Below are positions 27,654-43,500 of a stretch of DNA of 64,000 nucleotides, one piece after another (the first letter of the stretch is position 1; every line of letters begins with the position of its first letter). This DNA is from Polynucleobacter sp. JS-Safj-400b-B2 (GTDB taxonomy: Bacteria; Pseudomonadota; Gammaproteobacteria; Burkholderiales; Burkholderiaceae), in contig NZ_JACVPJ010000004.1 in the NCBI RefSeq assembly GCF_018881975.1, positions 1-64,000 of the forward strand, written 5' to 3'. Both the position numbers and the translations under genes were made by a program. The notes beneath the pieces were generated by a model that worked only from the letters and a program-made list of their open reading frames with translations, made no database searches and was not told the DNA's origin.

Positions 27654-29198
27654 ATGCCTATTGTTCAACAAGGCCAAATTAATCCTATTGGATCGAACGT
27701 CCCTAACTGGTGGGTGCAAATCATGCAGCCAAGCGCTGCTCCCATTGTCGGCGCGCAATCCAATGTTTCTGCATTGGTAGGTACAGCATCATGGGGTCCA
27801 GTCAATCAAATTGCCTATGGTGGTGGCATTGCTGACTACAAAGCCCAATTTGGCCCAATCATGCCTCGCAAATACGACATGGGCGCTCATGTAACGATTC
27901 AGGGTATGCAAGGCGCGAGCATGTTTATGTTCGTGCGAGTTACCGACGGAACCGATACATCGGCTACAGGTACGATTACAGCCGCAAGTGCTGCTGACGC
28001 TACTGCTATTGCATTAGCCATTAACTCTGGTCAAAGCTCAATTCGTGGGGCTTCTGCGTTGATCAACGCCTCTGCCAATAATGCTGTCGTAACTCTGAGC
28101 AGTAAGTACACCGGCAGTTATGGCAACAATACGGCTATTAGCGTTGCCACTGGCACTCGCTTAAACACCACAAAAGTAACGGTATCAATGCCAGGTCGAA
28201 ATGTGGAAACATTCGATAACTTGGGCGCTGCATCCGCAACTGTGGCAAGCATTACATTGGCTGGCGGTACTGATGGATACACAGGCGTAACTTCCACTTC
28301 ATTGGTTGGTGTTGATGGCACCAATCGTACCGGCATGTATGCATTGCGTAAAAGTGGCGCTGCCGTTGTATCACTCTGCGATGCTGATGATTCCACTCAA
28401 TGGGCTAGTCAGGCGGCATTTGGACTTGGTGAGAACTGCTATGTCATTGGTACAGGTCCTGCAGGCGACACGATCGCTAATGCTGTTTCAACCAAGAATA
28501 CGGCTGGAATCGATAACTGGTGCTTCCGGTTGCAATTCGGTGACTGGACTTACTTCAACGATACCGATAACGGATTGATTCGCTTGGTATCTCCACAGGC
28601 GGCTATTGCTGGTTTGCGAGCTGCTTATGCTCCGCACCTCTCGCTGTTGAATCGCCCAATGCAGGGCATTGTCGGTACTCAGCGTAATGGCTTGCCAGGC
28701 ACCTCAGTAACACGTCCATACTCTGATGCTGATTTATTGCAATTGGCAAATGCTGGTATCGACGTGATTAGCAACCCTTCTGTGGGCGGCAACTTCTTCT
28801 CATCCCGCATTGGTCACAACACTTCAAGCAATCCGCTGACGCGTGGCGATAACTACACATCATTGACTAACTTCATTGCTAAGAGCATTGGTGGCTGGTC
28901 AGGTCAATGGGTTGGTAAATTGCAGACGATCGATCAACGCCGTCAGGCAAAAGCTGGATTAGATGGCTTCTTTGCAAGCCTTCAAAACCAAGGAATGATC
29001 GGCGCTGTTAACGGTGGCCCAGCGTTTTGGACAAAATTAGACGCAGGCAATAACCCTTTATCTCAAGTCTCTTTGGGTATCGAGCAAGCCGATGTCAAGG
29101 TTCAATACTGGTCCGTAATTGAAACCTTCCTCGTCAACGTTGAAGGCTCACAAGCCACGGTTATTCCAAGCGGCGCACCAGTGCCAGCGGCTCAATAA
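27654..29198 (+). CDS. Contractile tail sheath protein
   Basis: The 514-residue protein has the sheath N-terminal part (VGAQSNVSALVGTASWGPVN, ADYKAQFGPI), a long Thr/Ala/Gly-rich surface domain, and the conserved core with RLVSPQAAIAGLRAAYAPHL, IDVISNPSVGGNFFSSRI and a C-terminal RRQAKAGLDGFFASLQNQGM. It polymerises around the tube and contracts to inject DNA. This identifies a myovirus. GGAG precedes the ATG. Confidence 0.88.
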   Translation: MPIVQQGQINPIGSNVPNWWVQIMQPSAAPIVGAQSNVSALVGTASWGPVNQIAYGGGIADYKAQFGPIMPRKYDMGAHVTIQGMQGASMFMFVRVTDGTDTSATGTITAASAADATAIALAINSGQSSIRGASALINASANNAVVTLSSKYTGSYGNNTAISVATGTRLNTTKVTVSMPGRNVETFDNLGAASATVASITLAGGTDGYTGVTSTSLVGVDGTNRTGMYALRKSGAAVVSLCDADDSTQWASQAAFGLGENCYVIGTGPAGDTIANAVSTKNTAGIDNWCFRLQFGDWTYFNDTDNGLIRLVSPQAAIAGLRAAYAPHLSLLNRPMQGIVGTQRNGLPGTSVTRPYSDADLLQLANAGIDVISNPSVGGNFFSSRIGHNTSSNPLTRGDNYTSLTNFIAKSIGGWSGQWVGKLQTIDQRRQAKAGLDGFFASLQNQGMIGAVNGGPAFWTKLDAGNNPLSQVSLGIEQADVKVQYWSVIETFLVNVEGSQATVIPSGAPVPAAQ

Positions 29199-29267: not shown

Positions 29268-29699
29268 ATGAGTACTCTTGGACGATCAACCGGACGTGAC
29301 TTAAGCATTGCAATTGTGGCTGGCGATGGCACAAATTTCAATCTCGGAAATATCCTTGATTTCAAGCCAAAGCAAGAAATCACCAAACAGCGAGTTAAGC
29401 CAATTAACGGAAAAAATGCTGAGTTAGTCCACATCGATGGTTGGAGTGGAAGTATTCAAGTTGAACGTATGTCAGCCGATATTGATAACTACTTTGCAAC
29501 GCAAGAAAAAAATTATTACAACGGAATCAGCAGTCAGCCTTGCACCATGCAGTTAACAATTAATGAACCAAATGGTTCTGTTACTCAATGGAGATTTACA
29601 GGCGGTACATTGACTTTTGATAACGCTGGCGATTGGCAGCAAGATAAGTCTGTGTCGCTGACCATCGGTTTCTTTTTTAGTTCTCGCGAACCAATTTAA
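29268..29699 (+). CDS. Tail tube protein
   Basis: The ATG at 29268, nine bases after GGAGG, gives 143 residues (a TTG at 29253 would lie inside the ribosome binding site). MSTLGRSTGRDLSIAIVAGD, WSGSIQVERMSADIDNYFAT and a C-terminal beta-strand fit a Mu/P2-like tube protein. It follows the sheath, as usual. It forms the inner tail tube. Confidence 0.8.
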   Translation: MSTLGRSTGRDLSIAIVAGDGTNFNLGNILDFKPKQEITKQRVKPINGKNAELVHIDGWSGSIQVERMSADIDNYFATQEKNYYNGISSQPCTMQLTINEPNGSVTQWRFTGGTLTFDNAGDWQQDKSVSLTIGFFFSSREPI

Positions 29700-29788: not shown

Positions 29789-30184
29789 ATGTCTGAAAAT
29801 ACAAATAAAGTTGGCGATGTAAATGTAACCCTCAAACCAAGTGAGCAGATCGCAAGAGCTGCCGCAAAGGAATTTGAGGTTATCGACGATTTAGGCCGAA
29901 TCATTAAATTGAAGAAGCCAAACCCATTGGCGAATTTAGATTTTGCGAAGGCTTCGGGTGGTGAAAAGCTCAACGTGAGCTATTTATCTGAGGTATTTCA
30001 CCTTAAGTATGTTGCTGGCATTGATGGCGACATAGTCATTACGCCAAGCACCGAGGGTGAATTAAGGGCTCTATACAAGCGCCTGGGGGATGAGGGCAAC
30101 CAAGCCGCAATGCTTGGTGTCATGGAGCATTTCCTTAATCCTCAGTCTGAGCAGAAAAGTGATTCAGAACTAAAAAACTCCTAG
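29789..30184 (+). CDS. Tail assembly chaperone, short form (gpG-like)
   Basis: The ATG at 29789 is nine bases after GGAG; a GTG at 29783 is too close to it. The 131-residue protein begins MSENTNKVGDVNVTLKPSEQ. Its place between tube and tape measure and the frameshift signal near its end identify it as the short tail assembly chaperone that guides tube polymerisation around the tape measure. It is made in excess over the frameshifted form. Confidence 0.8.
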   Translation: MSENTNKVGDVNVTLKPSEQIARAAAKEFEVIDDLGRIIKLKKPNPLANLDFAKASGGEKLNVSYLSEVFHLKYVAGIDGDIVITPSTEGELRALYKRLGDEGNQAAMLGVMEHFLNPQSEQKSDSELKNS

Positions 30185-30351
30185 AGGACAACGCCATAAG
30201 CGATTGTTTATGGCTTGTCCACAATGGAGTTCCTTTTGATGTCGCCTTTTCTCTTGATGATGTGACGAGAACTGCTTTTGCTATTACATTTCAAGAATTT
30301 AATGGCGCTGAGTTTGATCTCAATAGCATGACTTTTAAGGACAAATCATGA
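29789..30351 (+). CDS. Tail assembly chaperone, -1 frameshift fusion (gpGT-like)
   Basis: Ribosomes slipping back one base on AAAAAAC (30172-30178) avoid the TAG at 30182-30184 and read 57 further codons, starting LLEDNAISDCLWLVHNGVPF, to a TGA at 30349-30351. That stop overlaps the start of the next gene (ATGA), as expected for a used frame. The fusion would be 187 residues. Fusion chaperones of this sort bind the tape measure in lambda and P2-like phages. Confidence 0.82.
30172..30220 (+). promoter_or_regulatory. Programmed -1 ribosomal frameshift signal
   Basis: Slippery heptamer A AAA AAC at 30172-30178 lies in the correct zero frame (CTA AAA AAC). After seven bases a 13-base-pair stem follows: GGACAA-C-GCCATAA (30186-30199), an eight-base loop, TTATGGC-TTGTCC (30208-30220), with one bulged C. 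Heptamer, spacer and stem all match the canonical design. Confidence 0.88.
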
Positions 30352-30851
30352 GGTCATTTGAAGATCTTGGTTCATTCGCAGCCGAGCTAATTGCTGTTGA
30401 GGTTGGCTTTCACATGCAACTTGCTCATGGGCTTGAGAAGGTGGCTCAAAAGGTTGAAAAAACCGCTAAAGATGAGATTGGTGAATATCAAGAGGCTATT
30501 GGACCATTCCCTGACTGGGAGCAGTTAGCAGATAGCACCAAAGAAGATCGGGTTAGGAGGGGCTTTACTGAAAACGACCCCTTGCTTCGGTCTGGCGCCT
30601 TAAGAGATTCAATAGGCCATCAAACGGATGTCAATAGCCTGGAAGCCGTTGTTGGTTCAACGTCAGATATTGCCGTTTATCAAGAGCTAGGTACGGAAAA
30701 GATACCGCCTAGACCATTCCTTGGTCCGGCTGTTGAGCAAAACCGTAATGCAATTAAAAAGATTGTAGGTGGCGCAGCAATTAGAGGTTTGCTGGGTGGT
30801 GGCTCAATACCCGCTGAGTTGGAGTATGACCACGATATTCATGAGGGTTAG
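30348..30851 (+). CDS. Tail completion protein (HK97 gp10-like)
   Basis: The 167 residues include WEQLADSTKEDRVRRGFTEN, DPLLRSGALRDSIGHQTDVN and VYQELGTEKIPPRPFLGPAV. The LLRSG-x-L-x-x-S and YQE-x-GT-x-x-x-PPRPFLGPA blocks define HK97 gp10/Mu gpG-type tail completion proteins. It follows the chaperone frameshift product with a four-base overlap. Confidence 0.85.
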   Translation: MRSFEDLGSFAAELIAVEVGFHMQLAHGLEKVAQKVEKTAKDEIGEYQEAIGPFPDWEQLADSTKEDRVRRGFTENDPLLRSGALRDSIGHQTDVNSLEAVVGSTSDIAVYQELGTEKIPPRPFLGPAVEQNRNAIKKIVGGAAIRGLLGGGSIPAELEYDHDIHEG

Positions 30852-31120
30852 AACCAGCTAGAAACAATTGCGTAGAGAACTATGCAAGCAACGAGTATCA
30901 GAATTAAAGAGAAGCCCCCAGCAATCAAAGAGTACATCAGCACAAACAATTTACCAGCCCAACTGAGGCGCGCCTTTTCGCTATTGCCATCCATTTCAAT
31001 TAATGGGTTGCTTCCGTGGCGTTGCCAGTTAGGGCGCTTAGATTCTTGGCGAATGTGTGGGTACTGAATAAAGCTAAATTTATTCGCTAAAAACTCTTGG
31101 ATGCGTTCAAAGAAAGTCAT
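30848..31120 (-). CDS. Antisense small membrane protein inside the tail operon
   Basis: On the minus strand a 90-residue frame fills the 271-base gap between the tail completion and tape measure genes. It has a polar N-terminus (FERIQEFLANKFSFIQYPHI) and a long hydrophobic segment at about 57-88 (LFVLMYSLIAGGFSLILILV and beyond). Its start codon lies two bases from the tape measure start. No strong ribosome binding site is evident. It may be a moron gene expressed in the lysogen; the plus-strand frame in the gap looks non-coding. Confidence 0.6.
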   Translation of the reverse strand: MTFFERIQEFLANKFSFIQYPHIRQESKRPNWQRHGSNPLIEMDGNSEKARLSWAGKLFVLMYSLIAGGFSLILILVACIVLYAIVSSWF

Positions 31121-31122
31121 AT

Positions 31123-33033
31123 ATGAGCCTAGATGCTTACAAAGTTGCGGTAAAGATAGCGCTGGTTGAAAATGTGACCGCTGGCCTTGCCAGCATGTCT
31201 AAGCATTTTGCCACAGCAAATTTGGGCGCAAAAGAGCTCAATGCCCAGCTCAAAAGCATTGGTCAAACCGCCATGCTGGGCGGTGGATTGGTTGCAATAG
31301 GTGGTTTAGGGCTTCATTTGATGAAAGGGCCGCTTGAAGAGGCTAAGAAATATCAAAACCAAATGGCAAAGCTCCAGGCCCAGGGTGTTGGGGATGCGGC
31401 ATTAATTCAAGCTGACAAGTATTCAAAAGCACAGCGCATTATTGGCGCCAGCTCGACTGATACGCTCAAGATGCTGTCTGAGGCTAATTCCGTACTTCGC
31501 GATATGCATCATGCTGAAGAGGTAACGCCCATGCTTTTGAAGATGAAGTTTGGCATTGAGTCCGTAATGACTCAAGGTGGGCATGGCGGTGGTCATGGCG
31601 AAAAAGCAGAGCGCATGTTTATGGATGCGCTGAAAGTAGGCGAGTTGCGTGGAGCCCTTATAGATCAGAGCACTGGGAAATTTAGCGCAGAAAAGTTCAA
31701 AGAGACAATGGACTTTATGACTCGCGCCTATACAGCGTCTGGTGGTTTGGTAAAGCCAACCGAGTATTTAAATATGATTAAAACTGGCGGTATTGCTGCC
31801 AAGTCTTTGTCTGATCAGGCGTTTTATTTTGGGCTCATGCACATGGCTCAGGAGCAGGGCGGTAGTCGTACCGGTACTGGCTTGATGTCGGCATTCCAAA
31901 ATATGTATATGGGCCGTACTACTCAGCAGGTGGCTGAGGAAATGAACAAAATGGGCTTGCTCCAAAAGGATAAGCTGCATTATGGAAAGACGGGACACCT
32001 AGCTAAGATCGATGCTGGATCACTAAAGGATGCAGACCTTTTCCGAACCGATCAATTCAGGTACATGAATGAAGTCATGTTGCCTCAGTTACGGGCAAAA
32101 GGCATTCAAGACGGCGAGGCCATGAAGATGGAGATTGCTAAATTGTTTAGCAATCGAGTTGGCGGCAGTCAATGGGTAACGATGTACCAAGAGCGTGCCA
32201 ATATTCAAAAACATATTGATGCTGCAAAAAATGCGCTCGGTGTTGATGATCTTGCAAAACTTGGCGCCACAACATTAAGCGGCAAAGAAGTTGACTATGA
32301 GGCTAAGTTAGCAAGTCTCAAATTAGAGCTTGGACAGAAGATATTGCCATTAGCCGTTAGATCTCTAGAGTTATTAATTAACGTGATTGATAAGGTCACC
32401 CAATTTTCACAATCCTACCCAGTTCTAACTAAGTTTATTGTTCAGGCTTTCGCGATCGTGTCAGTTTTGGCGGTTTTAGGTGGCTCATTATTGCTATTTA
32501 AGTCTGCGCTCATGGGCTTGTCATTGCTTAATCCTGTTGCTCTTGGATTAAGGGCTGTCGCTATGGCTAGCGCCCCACTTGCCATTGGTGGCGTAGCTGT
32601 TGCCCCCGTTTTATTGGGATTGGGCGCATTGGTGGCCGCTGTTGCTGGTCTTTCCTATGTACTGCCTAAGATTTTTGGTGATGGCATTCATGACAAAGAT
32701 CATCCTGGCCAACACTTTGAGCGCCATGGTCGTGGTGCCAATAATGGCGTGTGGGTGTATGACGATGCCACCAAGAAAAATGATGCTGTAAAGCAAGATC
32801 ATGCTGGACAACACTTTGTTAGGGCTGGGCGTGGCGGTACTTGGGTTAATAACAAGCCCTCAGCTGATGGTGGCAATCAAAAAACCATTCAAGTGAAAAC
32901 GGAACTTAATGTTGATGGCAGAAAGTTAGCCGAAGCCGTTAGTCAGCACCAAGCAAGAGAGGCATCCCGCCCTGGTGCAGGCGCTCCTACTTATGACCCA
33001 TCTATGGGCCCTGTTCCTGTTGGATTGAATTAA
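31123..33033 (+). CDS. Tape measure protein
   Basis: The 636-residue protein follows the chaperones and has the expected features: a helical N-terminal part, Gly-rich hydrophobic segments (GGGLVAIGGLGLHLM near 50, and several between 430 and 515), and a variable C-terminus. Residues 526-548 and 559-580 are a degenerate tandem repeat with DHPGQHFERHGRG and DHAGQHFVRAGRG. Length sets tail length; at the usual 0.15 nm per residue this gives roughly 95 nm. Confidence 0.85.
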   Translation: MSLDAYKVAVKIALVENVTAGLASMSKHFATANLGAKELNAQLKSIGQTAMLGGGLVAIGGLGLHLMKGPLEEAKKYQNQMAKLQAQGVGDAALIQADKYSKAQRIIGASSTDTLKMLSEANSVLRDMHHAEEVTPMLLKMKFGIESVMTQGGHGGGHGEKAERMFMDALKVGELRGALIDQSTGKFSAEKFKETMDFMTRAYTASGGLVKPTEYLNMIKTGGIAAKSLSDQAFYFGLMHMAQEQGGSRTGTGLMSAFQNMYMGRTTQQVAEEMNKMGLLQKDKLHYGKTGHLAKIDAGSLKDADLFRTDQFRYMNEVMLPQLRAKGIQDGEAMKMEIAKLFSNRVGGSQWVTMYQERANIQKHIDAAKNALGVDDLAKLGATTLSGKEVDYEAKLASLKLELGQKILPLAVRSLELLINVIDKVTQFSQSYPVLTKFIVQAFAIVSVLAVLGGSLLLFKSALMGLSLLNPVALGLRAVAMASAPLAIGGVAVAPVLLGLGALVAAVAGLSYVLPKIFGDGIHDKDHPGQHFERHGRGANNGVWVYDDATKKNDAVKQDHAGQHFVRAGRGGTWVNNKPSADGGNQKTIQVKTELNVDGRKLAEAVSQHQAREASRPGAGAPTYDPSMGPVPVGLN

Positions 33034-43420: not shown

Positions 43421-43472
43421 TATTTGGCTCCTCGACCTGGGCTCGAACCAGGGACCTACGGATTAACAGTCC
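43421..43472. other. Right attachment site within tRNA-Asn
   Basis: Identical to 381-432. It is the 3' part of the complete tRNA-Asn, which the phage carries so that integration leaves a functional gene. Confidence 0.92.
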
Positions 43473-43500
43473 GGCGCTCTACCGACTGAGCTATCGAGGA
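43425..43500 (-). tRNA. tRNA-Asn (anticodon GTT)
   Basis: The 76-base minus-strand gene runs TCCTCGATAGCTCAGTCGGT to GAGGAGCCA with encoded CCA. The loop CTGTTAATC gives anticodon GTT. All four stems can form. The 5' part is host and the 3' part, from the anticodon loop on, is phage-derived. TATAAT (plus 43511-43516) lies ten bases upstream. Confidence 0.97.

Follow-up and report, generated by a model that had tools for sequence, protein, structure and literature searches.

Ribosomal −1 slippage that yields two tail-helper proteins from one gene is well known in tailed phages, and in lambda the slip site is G GGA AAG. Frameshifted tail assembly chaperones have been confirmed for lambda, P2, HK97 and others, as stated in the accessible portions of two reports (PMC5313236; PMC5009743), so that the system described below is of an already known kind. 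A preliminary description of the locus had cited lambda and P2 as established cases, and PMC5313236, in the portion accessible, indeed names P2 (gpE/E′), a contractile-tailed phage like the present one, as experimentally confirmed. For an HK97-like chaperone cluster, the frameshift efficiency was measured to be 7% (accessible portion of PMC3711429), and the phage KS10, which also has a contractile tail, is reported without a frameshift in the accessible portion of PMC2628397.

Here we describe a predicted chaperone gene of this kind in a prophage within the window, by which we mean the whole stretch of 64,000 nucleotides analysed (contig NZ_JACVPJ010000004.1 of Polynucleobacter sp. JS-Safj-400b-B2, whose genome measures 2.6 Mb). 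As in the lambda gpG/gpGT and HK97-type systems, two products are predicted, the −1 slip would take place near the 3′ end of the gene, and the gene lies between those for the tube and the tape measure; the lambda mechanism is taken from the accessible portion of PMC5009743. Unlike in these systems, an additional HK97 gp10-like gene is found between the chaperone and tape measure genes, and no sequence match was obtained from the window's family to solved chaperones. The heptamer is also different, being A AAA AAC rather than the lambda site. No Pfam phage model matched the family.

Two described phages show a similar arrangement. In Acinetobacter phage Loki (gp12/gp13, LN890663), A AAA AAC likewise stands beside the chaperone stop, and the gene order is chaperone, HK97 gp10-like, tape measure (accessible portion of PMC5313236; record LN890663); the joined product is annotated in the record. 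However, the Loki chaperone is not detectably related to that of the window (hhalign E 0.43), its −1 extension is long, and Loki is a siphovirus without a sheath according to the same portion of PMC5313236. In Komagataeibacter phage phiKX1 (LC644975), an isolated phage, both halves are homologous to those of the window (hhalign E 1.9e-11 and 5.8e-7), and the gene order is the same; the heptamer is followed directly by the stop, the junction being GCA AAA AAC TGA. The phiKX1 record holds two separate hypothetical proteins, with the −1 part starting from an internal ATG, and no annotated fusion. This phage was found solely via its tail sheath; a tblastn search of phage records with P0001, P0002 and three proteins of distant members (two zero-frame, one −1) gave no match at the limits used. 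The Aquitalea record NZ_CP029540 has the junction GCA AAA AAC TAG, and its gene table, which is incomplete by design, shows no gene over the −1 part. The earlier expectation that the fusion would be missed by ordinary gene calling thus fits both annotated homologues, NZ_CP029540 with its incomplete table and phiKX1. A literature search that covered few subscription papers returned no report of a frameshift in this family and none that mentions phrog_20383, the profile family to which the zero-frame protein belongs.

We read gene 29789 as a predicted −1-frameshifted tail assembly chaperone of the lambda G/GT type, with a probability of roughly 0.93. This reading rests on the anatomy of the signal, the conservation of both the site and the frame, selection on the −1 frame, hairpin pairing within the window's clade, gene order and a modest fold match. 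What is new is that the hairpin belongs to the window's clade, that a sister group mostly does without it and has its stop directly after the heptamer, and that a homologue lies unannotated in phiKX1.

Prophage setting and predicted frameshift signal

The prophage and its tail module comprise the following features, with all those from the sheath gene onward on the plus strand.

526–1524: integrase ORF, a prophage gene
27654–29198, plus: tail sheath gene (phrog_23, E 7e-38)
29268–29699, plus: putative tail tube gene, assigned by position only; its profile match, phrog_12993, is of unknown function
29789–30184, plus: zero-frame ORF, predicted short form of the chaperone, 131 residues (phrog_20383, E 2e-22)
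30172–30178, plus: slippery heptamer A AAA AAC, in phase and conserved in relatives
30179–30185, plus: spacer of 7 nt, which includes the zero-frame TAG at 30182–30184
30186–30220, plus: hairpin of 15 bp with one bulged C and a 4-nt loop, putatively stimulatory
30177–30230, plus: possible outer helix of 5 bp (30177–30181 with 30226–30230), predicted only, overlapping the slip site
30178–30351, plus: −1 extension, 57 codons and TGA, predicted C-terminal domain of the fusion
30348–30851, plus: HK97 gp10-like or tail completion gene (PF04883, E 4e-4; phrog_5, E 3e-15)
31123–33033, plus: tape measure protein gene (phrog_28, E 2e-18)

Direct repeats bracket the prophage at positions 381 and 43421 and match over at least 40 nt, the maximum length tried; the latter copy begins just 5′ of a tRNA-Asn gene (43425–43500), and the two are probable attachment sites. 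The order sheath, putative tube, chaperone, gp10-like, tape measure places the chaperone gene between the major tail genes and the tape measure gene, with the one extra gp10-like gene intervening. Among the 57 other distinct loci of the family (see below), a tube gene lies upstream of the chaperone gene in 54 and a gp10-like match lies 3′ of it in 53, within 165 nt of the −1 stop in 51 of these 53. The gp10-like gene is displaced by 553 nt in L026 and by 2172 nt in L029, where other DNA separates it from the chaperone gene; in L038, L062, L064 and L094, no gp10-like match was detected downstream.

The zero-frame context CTA AAA AAC TCC TAG puts the heptamer in the correct X XXY YYZ phase, 10 nt ahead of the TAG at 30182–30184. 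After a −1 slip, the first codon would be CTC at 30178, and the −1 frame continues to a TGA (30349–30351) that overlaps the ATG of the gp10-like gene (30348–30350), which makes the fusion 130 + 57 = 187 residues long. The preliminary description had given the phase of the heptamer, the seven-base spacer, the 57-codon −1 frame with its overlapping TGA and the 187-residue product in the same way, and the reading frames bear it out; its stem-loop holds as to position and single bulge, the pair count being 15 (stems of 6 and 9) in place of 13. The hairpin has a predicted energy of −21.8 kcal/mol (z −6.2), and none of 200 shuffled sequences was as stable; the same holds for the wider stretch 30172–30230 (z −7.6; 0 of 200). 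In the 34 listed genes of the window there are 41 in-phase XXXYYYZ heptamers, just two of which have a −1 frame that extends beyond the zero-frame stop: AAAAAAC at 30172, and GGGCCCT, late in the tape measure gene, where the −1 frame is simply the next gene.

Conservation of the slippery site and coding in the −1 frame

A first scan gave 30 IMG/VR loci with 57–71% identity, two of which run off before the stop. In the 28 relatives that could be read to the stop, AAAAAAC is found at stop−10 in 27 and AAAAAAA at stop−7 in one. A second scan with the −1 domain as the query found 105 loci, 80 of which were kept. Of the 145 loci collected in total, 133 have a plus-strand match to the −1 domain; the 133 examined include the window and leave out its own copy, L031, and many are overlapping extracts of one contig. 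Two are cut off and two lack the heptamer (L043 and L049). Collapsing those with a heptamer at 97% identity resulted in 58 distinct sequences, the window included, all with an A6-N heptamer at the same codon (45 AAAAAAC, 11 AAAAAAA, one AAAAAAT and one AAAAAAG). The 12 leftover loci comprise three that run off the contig and nine with a minus-strand match, which stand outside the hairpin, selection and tree counts; all nine have the heptamer (five AAAAAAC, three AAAAAAA, one AAAAAAG) and the −1 domain. Judged from these sequences, the arrangement is not due to chance, because 58 distinct sequences and nine further loci all have the heptamer at this one codon. The preliminary description had staked its proposal on conservation of the slippery site and the −1 frame among relatives, and both are conserved.

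The two loci without the heptamer differ from each other. L043 (1850–1865) has A AAG AAG before TAG in its place and keeps the −1 domain, with the shift perhaps occurring at A_AAG alone. L049 (1800–1870) has one A fewer than L037, a second copy in the same genome with an intact heptamer; the chaperone is thereby shifted to the +1 frame, either through mutation or through an error of sequencing. With the window's own genome counted in each case, P0001 matched 18 of the 398 genomes from the host's taxonomic family and one of 186 from its genus, and the PHROG profile matched one of 369 genomes in a class-wide draw.

Following the heptamer, 50 codons are open in the −1 frame in all 58 sequences, in the +1 frame in two and in the zero frame in none. 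Among codons with a single change in 24 disjoint sequence pairs, 124 are synonymous and 24 nonsynonymous when read in the −1 frame; the corresponding counts are 13 and 133 in the zero frame and 14 and 134 in the +1 frame. By this measure, the −1 frame is under strong purifying selection. An 11-residue insertion after the conserved VAF of the −1 domain, which brings it to 69 codons in total, is common to L007, L008, L011 and L012.

Hairpin and stop position among lineages

The distinct sequences were grouped by the position of the zero-frame stop. In the group with the stop at slip+10, to which the window belongs, a stretch with z ≤ −2 lies directly after the heptamer in 26 of 30 sequences, compared with 1/30, 3/30 and 3/30 for three control stretches. 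In the group with the stop at slip+7, which is directly after the heptamer (TAG in 27 of 28), a hairpin is found in just 4 of 28 (controls 0/27, 1/28 and 0/28, stretches too near a contig end having been set aside), and it is therefore not a general requirement. The signal had been called unusually clean, which is fair for the window's clade but does not extend to a hairpin throughout the family.

Pairing was counted in 11 of the 30 sequences, chosen by eye as those laid out like the window, together with L028 and L075; L004, nearly identical to L003, and the misaligned L064 were dropped from an earlier alignment. In these 11, 92.2% of cells are paired, as against 36–46% when the pairing is slid, and the covariation score is above that of all 500 shuffles. 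Three pairs are doubly changed, but 42 of the 500 shuffles have at least as many; for further pair types, 208 of 500 equal or exceed the observed number. Elsewhere in the group, for example in L013 and L026, a strong fold is retained in a different layout.

On the tree, the window falls inside a clade of 28 rows (support 99), 25 of which have the hairpin. The stop position changes at least four times, with just three independent pairs on supported branches, too few to test a link between hairpin and stop, and that link may be one clade-level event. A tentative and rather doubtful reading is that the lineages have exchanged one frameshift stimulator for another, with a hairpin and a stop one codon further on in one clade, and a stop directly after the heptamer in the clade without the hairpin. 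Slow termination at the adjacent stop, perhaps together with other elements, would then stimulate the slip. A Shine–Dalgarno-like duplex of −5 kcal/mol or stronger, 6–13 nt 5′ of the heptamer, is present in 26 of 30 sequences with the stop at slip+10, where the controls give 2/30 and 5/30, and in 8 of 28 with the stop at slip+7, where they give 4/28 and 8/28; glutamate codons could explain it, and the window itself is without such a stretch (−0.9 kcal/mol).

Protein family and fold

The zero-frame proteins match phrog_20383, a family of unknown function, in 50 of 50 members scanned. The predicted model of the window's protein (mean pLDDT 76) has as its best match among solved structures 2ob9, the HK97 tail assembly chaperone, with a Z of 4.8 (rmsd 4.5 over 94 residues; next match Z 2.9), a value in the range where just a common arrangement may be shared; in this the short form may resemble the HK97-type systems. 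Another chaperone-like model, that of Bg_9562, gave a DALI Z of 4.5 to the same structure, according to the accessible portion of PMC9603447. In a viral structure library, one match passed E 0.001, a phage protein with no named function (E 2e-6); next came the tail assembly chaperone of a Bacillus phage (E 0.02).

The −1 domain is modelled confidently (pLDDT 93); its fold search gave no match of Z ≥ 2 among 59 chains and a best viral E of 2.1. Pfam searches with 25 zero-frame and 25 −1 members gave no phage family up to E 0.1 (best unrelated E 0.0031), and NCBIfam searches with 50 zero-frame members gave 12 unrelated families (best E 0.0002) and no tail-chaperone model; these matches are to unrelated, chance-like families and were rejected. 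In PHROGs, the best of 25 −1 members reached E 0.015, in one member. A sequence search of the PDB returned two unrelated entries for the zero frame (E 0.15 and 0.79) and none for the −1 domain. We assign chaperone identity because of the conserved heptamer, the selected −1 frame, the gene order and the modest fold match to 2ob9.

Alternative explanations and proposed mechanism

The same fusion would arise if RNA polymerase, slipping on the A6 run, added an A in some transcripts. The conserved element is a run of A, extended to A7 in 11 of the 58 sequences, and sequence alone does not separate transcriptional from ribosomal slippage. An A6 run is, however, short for polymerase slippage, the hairpin, which in the window's clade lies 7 nt away, is consistent with ribosomal stalling, and L043, which lacks a long A run, still has its −1 domain; we therefore regard slippage by the polymerase as very unlikely. 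Less probable still is re-initiation past the zero-frame stop, which would make the −1 domain a small protein of its own; phiKX1 is annotated in this way, with its internal ATG. Some ATG, GTG or TTG ahead of codon 12 is present in 24 of 58 sequences, two of which, both with TTG, also have a Shine–Dalgarno-like stretch; but in 34 sequences, that of the window among them, a search of the −1 frame as far as codon 12, starting from its upstream stop or no more than 20 codons back, found no such codon, and re-initiation would leave no reason for the heptamer to be kept. The slightest chance of all goes to a sequencing error or a recent frame-breaking mutation in one continuous gene. Such changes or errors do occur, as the A missing from L049 relative to its sister copy indicates, but 58 distinct sequences share this relation of frames, and the −1 frame is under purifying selection; for the family this explanation is refuted.

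With gene 29789 as a frameshifted chaperone, most ribosomes would end at the TAG at 30182 and release the 131-residue protein; a smaller number, aided by the hairpin seven bases downstream, would shift back at A AAA AAC and produce the 187-residue fusion, in which the −1 domain accounts for 57 residues. On the model of lambda G/GT, the part common to both products would serve to coat the tape measure protein, and the −1 domain to recruit tail tube subunits. We infer the occurrence and efficiency of slippage as well as this division of labour. The proposal provides a likely function for phrog_20383 and for a 57-residue domain without a match in the libraries searched, and draws attention to two annotated homologues whose gene tables lack the fusion. 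It also offers, within one family, a natural set for comparing frameshifting with and without a hairpin.

Reverse-strand reading frame at the tape measure gene

On the minus strand, a conserved ORF of 90 residues (30848–31120), hydrophobic in its C-terminal half, lies between the gp10-like and tape measure genes and begins at the tape measure start codon. At E 0.01, tblastn matches it in 15 of the 57 other loci. The motif xLADR...QYP marks an ORF at the same place in 35 of 56 sequences, the window's LANKFSFIQYP being missed by the pattern. Searches with seven members found no PHROG or Pfam family (best E 0.044). In 28 of the 35, the ATG of the reverse ORF and an ATG of the plus strand overlap within the palindrome CATG; the plus-strand ATG opens a long ORF in 23 of these 28, which is, by position, the tape measure gene. 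Seven disjoint pairs of the reverse ORF show 122 synonymous and 53 nonsynonymous single-change codons. Such an ORF requires an antisense transcript, and it may therefore be expressed in the lysogen.
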